A DNA stretch of 37,642 nucleotides, from contig VMSU01000107.1 in assembly GCA_013792005.1 (NCBI GenBank), positions 1 to 37,642 of the forward strand. The letters run 5' to 3'. The notes under the pieces are model-generated. The model was not told where the DNA came from. It saw nothing but the letters and a program-made list of their open reading frames with translations, and searched no databases. The translations under genes and the position numbers were made by a program. The stretch comes from Desulfobulbaceae bacterium. Lineage in GTDB: Bacteria; Desulfobacterota; Desulfobulbia; Desulfobulbales; VMSU01. Positions 5,661 through 11,706 of the stretch are shown in pieces; within the stretch, counting starts at the first letter, position 1; every line of letters begins with the position of its first letter.

Positions 5661-7901
5661 CTATTTACTCGTTGCAGTAAATACCCCGTCCCAGTCAGGT
5701 GGGGGTGGATCGAACAGAAAGGCATCGATTCGACCAAGATACAGATCATACATAGGCGACTGCTCCTCCTGCTGCAATGACAGAAGGATTGCCCGGGCTT
5801 GATAAAAGTTCTGACCCTGATAATACCCGAGCGCCTCCTCAAACTTCTTGCTTTGCTCAAGGATCTTAGTCGAAGGCTCCCCCTCGCACCGAGGTTGATA
5901 GATGGCTACCGGACGATCCTTCCCTTTAACCCGAACCCTGTCGACTAACTGACAGAAAAAAGCCCCCTTAACCGCTTCATAGGTAGGCTCACTAAGTAAA
6001 ATGCTGGTGCCATAGATTTTATTCAGACCCTCAAGACGAGAGGCAAGATTGACGTTGTCACCGATCACCGTATAATCGAAACGCTGGGTGCTGCCGAAAT
6101 TACCAACACTCACTCGTCCGGTGTTGATCCCAACACCAATCTCGATTGCCGGCAGACCCTTTTTGCTCCACTCCGGTTGAAGCTTCCGTAAGGCATCACC
6201 CATCGCCATAGCCGCCCGAAGGGCATGAACCGCATGTTCTTGGTCCGGCAGTGGTGCTCCCCAAATCGCCATAATCGCATCACCGATATACTTATCCACA
6301 GTCCCCTGATGCGCCATGATAATATCACTCATGGCGCTCAAGTACTCATTAAGGAAACGGGCAAGCTCCGGCGAGGCCATGCTTTCAGAAATAGAGGTAA
6401 ACCCACGGATATCATTAAAGAATACCGTCAGTTCCCGCTCTTGACCCGCTAGAATGAGTTTTTCCGGGGCATCGACAAGCTCCTGGACTACTTGAGGTGA
6501 GACATAATGACTGAAGGCACCTTGGATAAATCGCTTCTCCCGATCCTTGATACAGTAGTTGAACAAGGTGACCACGACAAACACTGAGGAAAGGGTCAGC
6601 AAGGGATAACTCACCCCCACCACAACTCCCTGTAAGAAAAGTTGGTGATAAGTGCCATACACCAAGGTGAAAACAATCAGCGCCATCCCCCCCAGACCAC
6701 CAATCAAAGGACTAGAATAGGCCAACAGCGCCGCAAGAGTTACCCCTCCGGCGATAATCACTGTATAGGTCAAGCCAATCTCGGTGTAGATATCATGCCG
6801 CAGAGGGTCGCCATTCAGGATATTATCAACAACACTGGCATGAATCTCTACCCCAGGAACTACAGTGCCGAATGGGGTCGCCCGAAGGTCATGAAGCCCA
6901 GCTGCCGACGTGCCGATCAGCACATACTTGTCCTTGAAACTGTGAGTTCTGCCGTTAAGAACATCCCCGGCTGAATAGTAGGGGAATGATCTCCCAGGCC
7001 CACGAAAATTAACCGTCAACTGACCTGCGCTATCAGTAGGAATAAAATGGCTGCCCACGCTGACTCCCAGGAGAGGGAAACGACCTCGGCTATGCGTTGT
7101 GGCGTAAATCGTTACGGAACTGACATCAAGCCCCATTCGCACCACCTCAAGTGCCAGCGAGGGGTATGGAATCCCATCATAGGCCATGAATAACGGAACT
7201 TTTCTAACCGTCCCTGACGGATCGGGGATCACATTGAAAAACCCTTCCGACTGAGCTATTGCCACCGCAGGCACGTTGACAATCGCCCGATAGGCTTTAC
7301 GCAGAGGAAGGTCCGCGAAGTTGATCTCTTTCGGCTCGAGAGAGAGATTAATAGAGGGAAAAGGGACGCTTGCCGGATTTTTGAGTCCATCGTCAGAACA
7401 TTGAAACACATACCCGAGAATGGTTGGGGTTGTGGCAACAACACCACCAAGGGTTGCATCATGATCAAAGCGTTGATCAGTCTTGAGGTCGTTGATCTCC
7501 TCAAGGCTGAAACGCTGAACCAAAAACGGCTCAAGCTCACCCAGCCCATAGCGAGGAGAAGTCCGATCGACTTCGGCAAACACGATATCCATAGCGATGG
7601 CTTTAGGCCCTTGGCCGGCAATAGCCTCAAGCAGACGGGCCACCTCTGTTCGGGGCCAGGGCCATTGACCGATCTGCGACAGACTCTTCTCATCAATATC
7701 GACCACCACCACCGACCCGCTGCTGGGATGCGGGCCACGCCAACGAAACATGACATCGGTGATCTGGTTATCGAGTTGTTCAAGGAATCGGGGCTTAACT
7801 CCCCCAAAGGAGTAAAAAACAAGGCAGGCCGCAACCACAACCAGACAACCGGTTGCAAACGGAGAAGATACCGCGAGATACAAATTCTTGGCTCTGAGCA
7901 T
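5661..7901 (-). CDS. CHASE2-domain adenylate/guanylate cyclase
   Basis: This receptor-type class III nucleotidyl cyclase is about 746 aa. An N-terminal membrane anchor (residues ~14-34) is followed by a periplasmic CHASE2 domain (VVVVDIDEKSL, GQWPWPR, ending YVLIGTSAAGLHDLRATP), then three membrane spans near 376-448 and a cytoplasmic catalytic domain. Both metal-binding aspartates are present (FFNDIRGFTS near 497 and KYIGDAIMAIWGAP near 541), as are the catalytic Asn and Arg in GDNVNLASRLE. A TPR-like tail follows. ATP versus GTP preference cannot be settled by eye. ATG 7901 is preferred; the GTG at 7922 is the outer limit and lacks a ribosome binding site. It is the last gene of an operon with a FecR-domain protein and a barrel protein, which may provide or sense its stimulus. 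Confidence 0.92.
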   Translation of the reverse strand: MLRAKNLYLAVSSPFATGCLVVVAACLVFYSFGGVKPRFLEQLDNQITDVMFRWRGPHPSSGSVVVVDIDEKSLSQIGQWPWPRTEVARLLEAIAGQGPKAIAMDIVFAEVDRTSPRYGLGELEPFLVQRFSLEEINDLKTDQRFDHDATLGGVVATTPTILGYVFQCSDDGLKNPASVPFPSINLSLEPKEINFADLPLRKAYRAIVNVPAVAIAQSEGFFNVIPDPSGTVRKVPLFMAYDGIPYPSLALEVVRMGLDVSSVTIYATTHSRGRFPLLGVSVGSHFIPTDSAGQLTVNFRGPGRSFPYYSAGDVLNGRTHSFKDKYVLIGTSAAGLHDLRATPFGTVVPGVEIHASVVDNILNGDPLRHDIYTEIGLTYTVIIAGGVTLAALLAYSSPLIGGLGGMALIVFTLVYGTYHQLFLQGVVVGVSYPLLTLSSVFVVVTLFNYCIKDREKRFIQGAFSHYVSPQVVQELVDAPEKLILAGQERELTVFFNDIRGFTSISESMASPELARFLNEYLSAMSDIIMAHQGTVDKYIGDAIMAIWGAPLPDQEHAVHALRAAMAMGDALRKLQPEWSKKGLPAIEIGVGINTGRVSVGNFGSTQRFDYTVIGDNVNLASRLEGLNKIYGTSILLSEPTYEAVKGAFFCQLVDRVRVKGKDRPVAIYQPRCEGEPSTKILEQSKKFEEALGYYQGQNFYQARAILLSLQQEEQSPMYDLYLGRIDAFLFDPPPPDWDGVFTATSK

Positions 7902-7986
7902 GAAAGCACATTCCGTTAGCACAGGAAGAAGAGATTATGGCGGGTACTGATAGCTCACCCGCCAGGGAAGGGGAAAATATCAAAGC

Positions 7987-10350
7987 TCAACGGGCAGGAC
8001 CGTTGACCAAGTTGCCACCAAAGATCCCAAGGTATCGCTGGGTACTGAGTTCGGCCTGGAAATTTCCGCCGATGGCATTGACTGTTGGTCCATAGAATAC
8101 CCCATTAACAGCGCTGTCGATGACACCGGGGTTAACAATGCTCGCCTTGAATCCTTGCCCAGTAAGCAGCGATGCCGCCGAGTTAATGCTCAAAGTAACC
8201 TCGTCAAAGGACAAGGCCCCGGTAACTGCCGAGACGACAGAAGCTTGGCCAAAATCAATGGCCAGATTGGTTCGGCCATTGGTCAGCGGGGAAGCATGAT
8301 TCATTGAATCGATCACTTGCCCCTGGGCCCTCCCTGAGTAATGACCGACAAAGGTCGTCTTATTGAGCAACGAATCAACAAAGCTTGCTGGAGTTCTCTG
8401 CCCCGCAATCCACAGGGAGTAAGGGACATGGGTGTGATACATATCGTCGACCGTATCCACCATATCCGGCCCATCCGGCTCTTGATGGGTGATCTCCCAA
8501 TGGCCCCAGCTGACGTAATCGGAAAACTGTCGTTCAGGAACCTCGGTAACCAAGTAGTTACCATAGGGGGTAAGACCAACATTAAATACAGGTGTCGATG
8601 TGCTATCATCATTGATACAGTTGCCGGAGCAGCCGATGATCGCCATCATGGCATCATCTAAAACATAGGCCGAGCCATGGCTACCGCCGATTTCCAGCTC
8701 CAGACCGCCAAAGTTGGAACCGATAACAGACCCAAGGGTGGTGGTGCTAGAGGTGGCCGTTGACATCCGGTTAAGTTGAGGTGCTTTAAACCGACCGGTA
8801 ATAGTGCCCAAGTCTCTATCGATTGCCAGGATAAACTCTTCGTCAATGCCGTCGGCGACAGTATTCATGAAAAGCTTTCGTTCGACATCAGGCCCATTCA
8901 CATTCTCGGAGACGCCCACGGCAAACCCAGACCAGAGTGATGTCCCCTTGAGTGAAGTGAGATCAAGCGGATCCTGAGGTCCCCGAGCGGCGGAGACCGT
9001 CACTTCCCATTGTGAAACCAAAGGGGTTCCCGGGATGCGCAGGCTGTACTCCCCGCCTGTTGCACTGGCAGTAAAGCTCTCAACCTGAGTGCCGGCAAAA
9101 CCGCCCGTTCCGGCACCAGACAAGAGCGAAACCCCATCAGTCAGGCTTGTTGGGATCGTTGAACTTGGTGGGTCCCCGGCATCACTGCCGAAGATATGAA
9201 TATCGGTTAGATTGGCATCTTTGACCGTTCCAAAAAAGAAGACCGGTCCCCCGTAGGGAGTTGTCTGATCCTTCATGCCCCCGACAGCCTTGCCACTGTG
9301 CCAGTTAACCTCCATCAAAAAGTCCCCGCCAATCGCCCCGAGGTCTGGAGTGGAAATTCCCTTAAATGTACCCTTATAGCCGGAAATACCGTCTCTAGGG
9401 GGAACGGGAACGGCTGGCGGCAGAATAACCGGCAAATTATCCGGATTATCCTTAGGTTCATAGAGGACCGGCGGCACCGGAACAGGAACCGGCAAAGCAG
9501 TTGTTAGCTGGGGAGGTACGGAATCCACTCCTAACTCCTGGCCAGAGAGATCTTTCAGCGCCATCTCACTGGCCAGGGCCGTGGAGGAGGCACTCGGCGC
9601 CTCGTTCATCTCCTTCTTCCCTGCCGGGGTCTTATCACCGACCTCTCGCTTCTTCTTCATTGGAGTTTTTTCTTGGTCCGACTTACCGGTCTGCTTCTCT
9701 TCCGGCGGGGTACCGGTCATAGTCTCGTTAAAGATACCAAGCTCTGCCCCACTCAACTTCTTAGGCGGACTTGGGGGCTGGTCGGTGCTACTGACCTGGG
9801 AGCCGAAACCCGGCGTGGTAATGGCAACCGTCCCAGCGGCATTGGTGATATCGATCCCTTTGCCGCCCTGGAAAACCACGGAAAGAGAATTTCCCCTCAC
9901 CGTTCCTGCGTACATGGATCCTCTGATCCCAATAGTGGCCGTGGGGGTTTCGGTAGTAAAATTTTGGGGAACAAATTTCGTTAACGCACCACCCATGACC
10001 CGAAAGGTCCCCTCTTTCACCCTAGTCTTCATCTTACCGGTCTTAGCCTCCTGATCCCAATGATACTCTGCAAGTATCATTTCGGTATCGGAAGCAAGAC
10101 TGATGATTGAGGCATCACGAAACAGCAGTTGGATCCTTCCCTGCTTCCCGGTGCGCAAGATATCCTCCTCAAACACCGGGCCTTTTATCACAAGCGTCCT
10201 AACCACACCGTGCGGGGTGGTGGCTGTGACCTGCCCCCTTACCGCCACGACCGTGGCAATGGCCGCAGAGTCAGGACTGACGGCAAAGGCGCCTGCAACA
10301 TCAAACAGTATACCAGCAAGAGCGGCAATCAAGAATAGAAGCCGGATCAT
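7987..10350 (-). CDS. Secreted FecR-domain protein with TbpB-like C-terminal beta-barrel motifs
   Basis: The product is 787 aa with a GAGGGA ribosome binding site 5 nt before ATG. A signal peptide spans residues 1-23 (no lipobox Cys). A FecR domain occupies about 30-165 (VVAVRGQVTATTP, DILRTGKQGRIQLLF, TPTATIGIRGSM). A long Pro/Lys-rich linker runs to ~325, and a Gly/Ser/Thr-rich beta region fills the rest. The last 120 residues hold HYSGRAQG, an alternating-strand segment, GVFYGPTVNAIGGNF (750-764) and GIFGG. That FYGP/GG/FG pattern is characteristic of the barrel found in TbpB-type lipoproteins and other Slam / type XI secretion cargo. I infer an exported or surface protein handled by the adjacent barrel protein. 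The ligand is unknown. The domain family call rests on motifs only. Confidence 0.82.
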   Translation of the reverse strand: MIRLLFLIAALAGILFDVAGAFAVSPDSAAIATVVAVRGQVTATTPHGVVRTLVIKGPVFEEDILRTGKQGRIQLLFRDASIISLASDTEMILAEYHWDQEAKTGKMKTRVKEGTFRVMGGALTKFVPQNFTTETPTATIGIRGSMYAGTVRGNSLSVVFQGGKGIDITNAAGTVAITTPGFGSQVSSTDQPPSPPKKLSGAELGIFNETMTGTPPEEKQTGKSDQEKTPMKKKREVGDKTPAGKKEMNEAPSASSTALASEMALKDLSGQELGVDSVPPQLTTALPVPVPVPPVLYEPKDNPDNLPVILPPAVPVPPRDGISGYKGTFKGISTPDLGAIGGDFLMEVNWHSGKAVGGMKDQTTPYGGPVFFFGTVKDANLTDIHIFGSDAGDPPSSTIPTSLTDGVSLLSGAGTGGFAGTQVESFTASATGGEYSLRIPGTPLVSQWEVTVSAARGPQDPLDLTSLKGTSLWSGFAVGVSENVNGPDVERKLFMNTVADGIDEEFILAIDRDLGTITGRFKAPQLNRMSTATSSTTTLGSVIGSNFGGLELEIGGSHGSAYVLDDAMMAIIGCSGNCINDDSTSTPVFNVGLTPYGNYLVTEVPERQFSDYVSWGHWEITHQEPDGPDMVDTVDDMYHTHVPYSLWIAGQRTPASFVDSLLNKTTFVGHYSGRAQGQVIDSMNHASPLTNGRTNLAIDFGQASVVSAVTGALSFDEVTLSINSAASLLTGQGFKASIVNPGVIDSAVNGVFYGPTVNAIGGNFQAELSTQRYLGIFGGNLVNGPAR

Positions 10351-10365
10351 ACAGTCCCTCTCTCG

Positions 10366-11706
10366 TTAGAACCCATAGGAGAACATCGCTACAGATACAT
10401 TTTTTCGATAGTCATAAACGCTGACAGTAGAGTCGGATTCGGTGTAGGTGTAGCTCAACTGTCCAAGGAGATTCTGCCTCCTACCTTTTGCTTGCCACAA
10501 TAGTTTCGTGACCCCACAATAGAAGTCACTTACTCTATCTAAACGTTGACTGACATCGCCGGGCTTGATGGCCCCATACTCTGTCCTCTGGCGGTTGAAC
10601 CCGGCAAAGGCGGTAAAATCCACGGGCAGAACCCGGTCATACCGCCCCCCCCAAGCACGCCGGTTATAACTCCAATAATCGGCATCGGCCCTTTCCTGCT
10701 CATGACCCAGGCTGACGGTAATCCTGTTATTGCCAAGCATGAGTATCGGACTGAGACCAAGGGTAAAGGTTGTCGCATCCTTTACCGAATTACTGTCCTC
10801 CTGATATCGTTTTTCCTGAAGAGTCGTGGTAGCGCTGGCAATAAGCTTCGAACTCAAACTGACTATCGCCGAGCCACCAATACCCATTGGCCGCATATAC
10901 GGATCATGCTCGACCAGCAGATCATGAAACATTCCATGGACCTCGTACAATGCCGTGGGTGTCTCATAGGCAGGTCCGGTACTAAGACCAAACAGGTTGA
11001 CATCCAAATCATGATAGTCGCCATAAAGGTTATTAAAGGTAGTGGCCGTAGTCTTCCAGGCAAAAGGGCTACCCTCCCTGCGATAGATATGGCTCACCAC
11101 CACGCTGGCGGTAGTGTAATAGTCGGATTGCGAGGGAGCCGACAGGTCATGAGTGACAAAATTCAACCCATCAAATGAGGTAAACAGAAAGTCCCCGGGG
11201 GACGAACGGATGTTGTCGTCAAAGCTGATTCCGGCAGAGACCGTACCACTGAAAAAGTGCCGCCGTTCGGCTGCGGCAATGGCTGAGAGGTAGTTATCAA
11301 TATTTATCCGCACAGCTCGAGGCGGATTGCCAGCAAGAACTTCATAAAAATACTGCTTGGCAGACTCGAAGGACCTTAGACGCATATAACAACGGGCGAG
11401 TTCAAGTTTCACCCGCATCGCACCCGGTTGCATGATCAGTATCCGCTCAAACGACATAACCCCAGTCTCATACTCTCCAGCCTCGGTGGCCGCAAGCCCA
11501 AGATAAAAACTGATCTCGATATTAGCAGGGTCATCGATAAACGCCAGTTGAAAATACCGAACGGCAGTGCTGTAATCCTGGCCCTGAAAGGCCTGCTTGC
11601 CGAGGACAAAAGGATCGGTCGCAACCGAACTGGCCGCAACAGTCTGAACGCTAAAGGAAAACAACAACAGACAATACCCAACGATAAAGGCGGCTTTCTG
11701 ATTCAT
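10366..11706 (-). CDS. TPR plus outer-membrane beta-barrel protein, Slam/DUF560-like
   Basis: The product is 446 aa from ATG 11706, chosen because GGGAG precedes it and a signal peptide (MNQKAAFIVGYCLLLFSF, cleavage after VAA) follows at once; the longer frame to 11829 has no such features. TPR-type helical repeats fill about residues 28-150 (ADP/IEISFYLGLAATEAGEYETGVMSF...). From ~160 on, alternating beta strands with aromatic ends run to a terminal Phe (FSYGF), the classic outer-membrane barrel signature. SGTVSAGISFDDNIRSSP at the junction resembles the first strand of DUF560/Slam barrels. Slam proteins move cargo with a TbpB-like barrel across the outer membrane. The neighbouring FecR protein starts 16 bp after this gene and carries such a tail. 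A plain TPR porin is the alternative. Confidence 0.78.
   Translation of the reverse strand: MNQKAAFIVGYCLLLFSFSVQTVAASSVATDPFVLGKQAFQGQDYSTAVRYFQLAFIDDPANIEISFYLGLAATEAGEYETGVMSFERILIMQPGAMRVKLELARCYMRLRSFESAKQYFYEVLAGNPPRAVRINIDNYLSAIAAAERRHFFSGTVSAGISFDDNIRSSPGDFLFTSFDGLNFVTHDLSAPSQSDYYTTASVVVSHIYRREGSPFAWKTTATTFNNLYGDYHDLDVNLFGLSTGPAYETPTALYEVHGMFHDLLVEHDPYMRPMGIGGSAIVSLSSKLIASATTTLQEKRYQEDSNSVKDATTFTLGLSPILMLGNNRITVSLGHEQERADADYWSYNRRAWGGRYDRVLPVDFTAFAGFNRQRTEYGAIKPGDVSQRLDRVSDFYCGVTKLLWQAKGRRQNLLGQLSYTYTESDSTVSVYDYRKNVSVAMFSYGF

Follow-up and report, generated by a model that had tools for sequence, protein, structure and literature searches.

Positions 5661–11706 of contig VMSU01000107.1 from a Desulfobulbaceae bacterium (GCA_013792005.1), analysed here at its full length of 37,642 bp and referred to as the window, encode a Slam-like outer-membrane barrel protein, a FecR protein bearing a TbpB-like body, and a class III cyclase with a CHASE2 domain, and the three genes are identified as a variant of the NsrA/CHASE2-type receptor joined to a Slam-type pair. 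With a probability of about 0.5 they form a trans-envelope sensor in which the barrel displays the TbpB-like body, the FecR domain stays in the periplasm and relays to the CHASE2 cyclase, and the cell probably uses the trio to relay surface encounters into an internal signal. The sequence analysis itself establishes gene identity, gene order, conservation, predicted folds, the co-variation of the TbpB-like body with the barrel and the intact cyclase site.

The source genome of the window comprises 4.0 Mb in 252 contigs. The original prediction, made from the sequence of the window, described three close genes on the minus strand with gaps of about 16 and 64–85 bp, and this arrangement was confirmed, the gaps being 15 bp between the barrel gene and the FecR gene and 64–85 bp between the FecR gene and the cyclase. 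The ATG at 11706 of the barrel gene lies inside a longer, GTG-initiated open reading frame (ORF) reaching 11829 and was chosen as start because in the structural model it opens directly on the signal-peptide helix. The features, with Z-scores, root-mean-square deviations (rmsd) and the predicted local distance difference test (pLDDT) where these apply, are as follows:

10366–11706, minus strand: Slam-like outer-membrane protein (DUF560/SlipAM, type XI secretion family), with signal peptide, TPR and a 14-strand barrel ending in F
11260–11625, minus strand: periplasmic TPR domain of the barrel protein (Pfam TPR; helices 73–187 in the AlphaFold2 model)
10369–11259, minus strand: 14-strand outer-membrane barrel, SlipAM region (14 long strands in the model; SlipAM 30.5 bits; OmpG/CymA Z ~21–22)
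7987–10350, minus strand: FecR and TbpB-like protein, presumed sensor/cargo (Sec-type signal peptide, no lipobox)
9751–10260, minus strand: periplasmic FecR domain (PF04773; PupR 6ovk, Z 16.1; 5ix9, Z 11.3; NF033682)
9445–9708, minus strand: disordered linker from FecR to the TbpB-like body (pLDDT <50, residues 215–302)
8977–9411, minus strand: first 8-strand barrel lobe, NHBA-like (5o1r, Z 14.9, rmsd 2.2 over 113)
7999–8943, minus strand: TbpB C-lobe-like handle and 8-strand barrel, putative Slam-recognised domain (5kkx, Z 14.8; TbpB_B_D; slam_lipo)
8014–8343, minus strand: TbpB_B_D match in the FecR protein (Pfam)
5661–7922, alternative start 7901, minus strand: CHASE2 receptor adenylate cyclase of class III (PF05226, PF00211, intact catalytic residues)
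6804–7826, minus strand: periplasmic CHASE2 sensor domain of the cyclase (Pfam)
5913–6440, minus strand: cytoplasmic class III cyclase domain (Pfam and residue check)

The barrel protein scores 30.5 bits for SlipAM (DUF560), above the curated Pfam cut-off of 22, and also matches TPR families, and its AlphaFold2 model (mean pLDDT 87.8) shows TPR helices, then 14 long strands, and ends in a phenylalanine. This is the layout of Slam1, with a TPR domain and a predicted 14-strand DUF560 barrel (PMC5449769), and it bears out the Slam/DUF560 layout proposed for this gene in the original prediction, as opposed to an unrelated porin lacking a DUF560 match. Among the homologues 43 of 48 match SlipAM in Pfam. 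The nearest barrel folds are the 14-strand porins OmpG and CymA (Z 21–22), a likeness between predicted and known structures that tells the fold of the barrel and not its function, while in a Foldseek search the exopolysaccharide porins BcsC and PelB, which combine TPR with a 16-strand barrel and are accompanied by synthase genes, take ranks 1–3 with an rmsd of 14–20. A sequence search of the PDB returned mostly TPR matches, and the Slam identity of the barrel therefore rests on Pfam together with the layout. As a Slam, the protein would move TbpB-type cargo across the outer membrane.

When analysing the FecR protein, the FecR domain was recognised at 33.4 bits (Pfam cut-off 24) and the model (pLDDT 81) revealed this domain and, behind a disordered linker of 88 residues, two lobes, the first with 8 strands and the second consisting of a handle and a barrel. 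The FecR domain resembles the cell-surface-signalling domain of PupR, whose structure was solved in complex (6ovk, Z 16.1), the first lobe resembles NHBA (5o1r, Z 14.9) and the second the TbpB C-lobe (5kkx, Z 14.8, 199 residues aligned, rmsd 3.9), and in a whole-chain Foldseek search matches 1–22 were all TbpB. The TbpB-type motifs that had been suspected at the end of this protein thus turn out, by structure, to be a two-lobed TbpB/NHBA-like body making up its C-terminal half. All 35 FecR homologues match FecR, 34 of the 35 match TbpB_B_D (E≤0.01), seven match FHBP_C (all Pfam) and 33 of the 35 match the NCBIfam family slam_lipo at E≤0.01. Across 38 relatives the linker that joins FecR to the TbpB-like body measures 60–558 amino acids, and with a minimum of 60 it could cross a barrel. 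No lipobox was found in the FecR protein of the window or in 35 of the 38 relatives, so the protein is not a classical surface lipoprotein; unlipidated or soluble cargos of the type XI secretion system (T11SS) are known (PMC12282271). A cytoplasmic N-terminal anti-sigma domain was not encountered, as the protein opens on a signal-peptide-like helix directly before FecR, and a Pfam search of the adjacent genes gave no sigma factor that could be a FecI partner. In three loci (L055, L092 and L095) the cargo proteins, of 1171–2052 amino acids, contain two or three tandem TbpB-like lobes.

To address the relation between the TbpB-like body and the barrel, complete FecR ORFs were sorted by their neighbouring gene. 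The raw counts, in rows that share ancestry, were TbpB present in 34 and absent in five beside a Slam-clade barrel, and present in four and absent in 35 where no barrel, or a TPR stub alone, was nearby. Because of this shared ancestry the Fisher value for the table is not to be taken as a probability. The four barrel-less cases with TbpB (L057, L104, L087 and L108) either represent a second paralogue of one operon or have a masked or broken barrel ORF as neighbour, and three of the five TbpB-negative neighbours of a barrel are explained by a gap of N (L060), a frameshift that moves TbpB to the following ORF (L091) and, at a contig end, a short gene (L065). Corrected accordingly, of about 40 intact FecR genes adjoining a Slam-clade barrel 37 encode TbpB vs none of 35 for which no barrel lies nearby, the real exceptions with a barrel beside FecR lacking TbpB being L166, L179 and also L079. 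Barrel-less TPR stubs pair with FecR proteins without TbpB, and neither TbpB_B_D nor FHBP_C is among the 25 most frequent Pfam families listed for 36 control FecR proteins. In the FecR tree the TPR-stub forms are located inside or beside the clade with TbpB and Slam, and since two of them (L110 and L227) nest within it on starred branches, barrel and TbpB appear to have been lost or gained together at least once. That a barrel is invariably accompanied by TbpB cargo was rejected as a strict rule, since L079, L166 and L179 contradict it, as do the more divergent barrels of a wider CHASE2 survey (L151, L169, L178, L181, L150 and L158).

Scanning GTDB genomes yielded 67 loci, and matches to the trio come mostly from metagenome-assembled genomes (MAGs) of Desulfobacterota, above all Desulfurivibrionaceae and Desulfobulbaceae. 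The order barrel, FecR and CHASE2 cyclase with short gaps is the same in most family members fetched, across genera of the order and in other Desulfobacterota; 44 of 49 automatically collected full-length barrel ORFs adjoin a FecR gene, with a median gap below 30 bp, the cyclase then follows in nearly all of these loci where the contig continues, and closer inspection added complete trios at L072, L078 and L087. Relatives beyond Desulfobacterota are found in Campylobacterota (L105), in one Planctomycetota MAG (L082) and in Alphaproteobacteria, where the TbpB/FHBP matches of Shinella and Paracoccus are weak. A concern raised with the original prediction, that the genes would not stay together in related genomes, was not borne out, as they are kept across genera, families and phyla. 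Since the flanking genes vary between loci or sit on the opposite strand, the unit consists of the three genes, and conservation makes this unit solid, its function being what we infer. The neighbours in the window, encoding a zinc-ribbon membrane protein, a pirin, a ferredoxin-type protein and an old yellow enzyme homologue, were rejected as parts of the system, being present in no related locus fetched. An apparent FecR-cyclase fusion in L037 and L060 was discarded as proof of contact because it spans a run of N, an assembly gap, and cyanobacterial matches (L117–L119) covered TPR only. Two loci show other arrangements: L072 carries two facing cassettes, one a trio with TbpB cargo and the other a second CHASE2 cyclase with a TPR/barrel gene and a FecR gene without TbpB, and in L233 (7858–11769), from a relative in which the FecR form occurs as well, a Slam-like barrel and a TbpB-barrel protein stand alone as a classical T11SS pair, with neither FecR nor cyclase.

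The third gene matches CHASE2 (3.4e-63) and Guanylate_cyc (1.3e-24) in Pfam, and the catalytic metal, adenine-selecting and transition-state residues are all present. The positions taken as adenine-selecting are those generally known for class III cyclases. Across 36 cyclases five of the six catalytic positions are invariant (metal, adenine-selecting lysine and transition-state residues), the adenine-selecting aspartate being kept in 28 of the 36. Judged from the sequence, the product should be cyclic AMP (cAMP), since the catalytic and adenine-selecting residues are conserved and the source genome contains class III cyclases (two) and cyclic-nucleotide-binding proteins (eight). Both FecR domains of this genome adjoin its two CHASE2 proteins; the other CHASE2 protein is a histidine kinase (L192, G000:C229, 8465–11727), upstream of which an OmpA-like lipoprotein and a short FecR protein are encoded. 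On the Paracoccus plasmid pAMI5 a cyclic-nucleotide-binding patatin-like phospholipase, a possible cAMP effector, adjoins the trio (L224, 714–2540).

Several known systems resemble the trio in part. In S. meliloti the CyaK-dependent cAMP signalling that responds to an external protein requires the outer-membrane protein NsrA (PMC7529298, PMC13001267). As in the window, NsrA-CyaK combines an outer-membrane barrel, FecR and TPR beside a CHASE2 adenylate cyclase. The ORF on pSymB directly adjoining the CHASE2 cyclase, which from this position we take to be NsrA as the record is unannotated, encodes a FecR-TPR protein of 1224 amino acids with a weak C-terminal barrel match (OMP_b-brl_3). There FecR, TPR and barrel are contained in one ORF with neither TbpB nor SlipAM among the matches listed, whereas in the window they are split over two genes and a TbpB-like body is present. 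A cluster consisting of CHASE2 cyclase, FecR protein, TPR protein and phosphodiesterase is reported for Campylobacterota (PMC9239204), a gene set that is the same except for the phosphodiesterase, none being located directly next to the trio of the window; the section describing the cluster mentions neither Slam/DUF560 nor TbpB-type cargo, and L105, a Helicobacteraceae MAG, has Slam-like, FecR, TbpB and CHASE2 pieces. The pairs of Slam/type XI secretion (with TbpB, fHbp, HpuA and HphA; NilB-NilC) share the TPR and 14-strand DUF560 barrel and the adjacent TbpB-barrel protein, but in the trio, found mainly in Desulfobacterota MAGs, the cargo has an N-terminal FecR and mostly no lipobox, and a CHASE2 cyclase follows. 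In the BiofilmReg operon a LysM-FecR protein is likewise placed beside a CHASE2 receptor, which differs in having a histidine kinase output, a peptidoglycan-binding partner and no outer-membrane barrel (PMC5192318). In FecA-FecR-FecI and PupB-PupR a FecR-type periplasmic domain relays an outer-membrane event, and PupR is the best fold match, but the trio has no adjoining sigma factor or TonB receptor and a signal peptide in place of a cytoplasmic anti-sigma part. The original prediction held the linkage of exporter and cyclase to be undescribed; this stood in part only, since the FecR/TPR/CHASE2-cyclase cluster was already reported in Campylobacterota and NsrA-CyaK is a functional precedent, and what appears to be unreported is the Slam identity of the barrel beside FecR and CHASE2 cyclase genes and the TbpB-type cargo body in such FecR proteins. 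The main texts of two T11SS surveys (PMC8406197, PMC12282271) do not mention FecR, CHASE2 or cyclase, and searches of the literature combining Slam with the FecR/CHASE2-cyclase cluster found no link, supplements and subscription papers being outside the search.

The view of an outer-membrane exporter and its surface cargo linked to an inner-membrane cyclic-nucleotide sensor, advanced in the original prediction, is supported by the folds, the family matches and the conserved linkage, and from these we infer export, retention by FecR, contact between FecR and CHASE2, and a ligand. The barrel would sit in the outer membrane with its own TPR domain in the periplasm, take the TbpB-like body at the C-terminus of the FecR protein and display it on the cell surface, while the N-terminal FecR domain would stay folded in the periplasm and the long disordered linker would run through or beside the channel. 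Because 35 of the 38 relatives have no lipobox another anchor is needed, and a folded periplasmic FecR would serve, acting as a plug that holds the protein in place of lipid. Binding of a surface ligand, or the state of export, would then be sensed by the periplasmic FecR/TPR pair, which would contact the CHASE2 domain of the inner-membrane cyclase and so change the cAMP output.

Several observations weigh against this proposal. In the window the TbpB_B_D match reaches 25.6 bits, 0.4 under the Pfam cut-off of 26, and slam_lipo 29.8 bits against a cut-off of 80. A Slam cargo normally reaches the surface whole, so that a periplasmic anchor would be new, and the N-terminal part of the FecR domain, which also resembles the retention module of LapA/MpAFP, had to be downgraded as proof of plugging to weak evidence, this being a general trait of FecR proteins that is seen in 20 of 36 FecR controls without Slam as well. 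The co-occurrence counts are not independent, most members of the trio coming from one broad lineage, and a barrel can function in the pathway without TbpB cargo, since some TPR-barrel proteins of the wider family (L179, L166, L151, L178, L181 and L079) neighbour FecR proteins for which the search gave no TbpB. The last point fits a static receptor like NsrA, where the barrel is a surface receptor that exports nothing and a periplasmic FecR-TbpB protein bridges it to the CHASE2 cyclase. NsrA, a single chain of FecR, TPR and barrel, acts together with CyaK, and signal binding has been proposed for the loops of its barrel. TPR-barrel proteins also partner FecR proteins where TbpB was not detected, and the operon is completed by signalling genes and not by a secretion apparatus; but a static receptor leaves unexplained a complete Slam-cargo body with a TbpB barrel, absent where the barrel is absent, and the barrel of the window is SlipAM-positive whereas NsrA has no SlipAM among the matches listed, so we regard it as rather doubtful.

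Ordinary type XI export, with the whole FecR-TbpB protein exported or released and the cyclase only controlling expression or reporting the envelope state, would agree with the known unlipidated T11SS cargos (PMC12282271) and with the likeness of the C-terminal body to TbpB, HphA and NHBA. It is nevertheless unlikely, as 28 of 29 barrel-less FecR genes are located near CHASE2 (most such loci having been chosen for CHASE2) and as CHASE2 is extracytoplasmic and FecR would be wasted outside the cell. That the barrel exports a polysaccharide or a small solute, like BcsC/PelB or a porin, is suggested by the top Foldseek ranks of BcsC and PelB and by OmpG/CymA at Z ~22, but appears very improbable for a SlipAM family member of 14 strands with adjoining cargo and no polysaccharide synthase among the adjacent genes. 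Neighbours without any functional link are hardly credible when the three-gene unit is kept across genera and phyla while the flanking genes differ.

If the proposed sensor is correct it joins type XI (Slam) secretion and cyclic-nucleotide signalling, fields unlinked in the papers found, and gives CHASE2 receptors of the inner membrane, for which ligands are generally not known, a route to sense the outside via an exporter and a TbpB-like surface protein. The trio is kept together in many sulfur-cycle bacteria, both NsrA and the FecR and TPR genes that accompany CHASE2 cyclases in other phyla are suggested to be variants of one design, and the question is testable with the E. coli surface-display assays already used for Slams.

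Gene sets elsewhere suggest a portable module tied to outer-membrane export. Tentatively, FecR/TPR/CHASE2-cyclase may be a portable reader of export machines, of Slam/T11SS, of type I secretion of DUF4347 proteins (L115, L228) and of NHLP exporters in Shinella and Ensifer, and in the Slam form a half-exported receptor with a FecR plug may be the sensor, a generalisation we consider possible at best. In four loci (L109, L110, L115 and L228) a TPR stub and a short FecR protein with a conserved Cys at its end are flanked by a TolC-like gene on one side and a gene for a giant DUF4347 protein on the other, HlyD genes being present as well. This set, which lacks barrel and TbpB, represents the FecR/TPR module in a type I secretion version, and in L115 a CHASE2 gene follows it. 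On plasmids of Shinella and Ensifer (L223, L226) FecR, TPR and CHASE2 cyclase genes are located beside NHLP bacteriocin-type ABC exporters.

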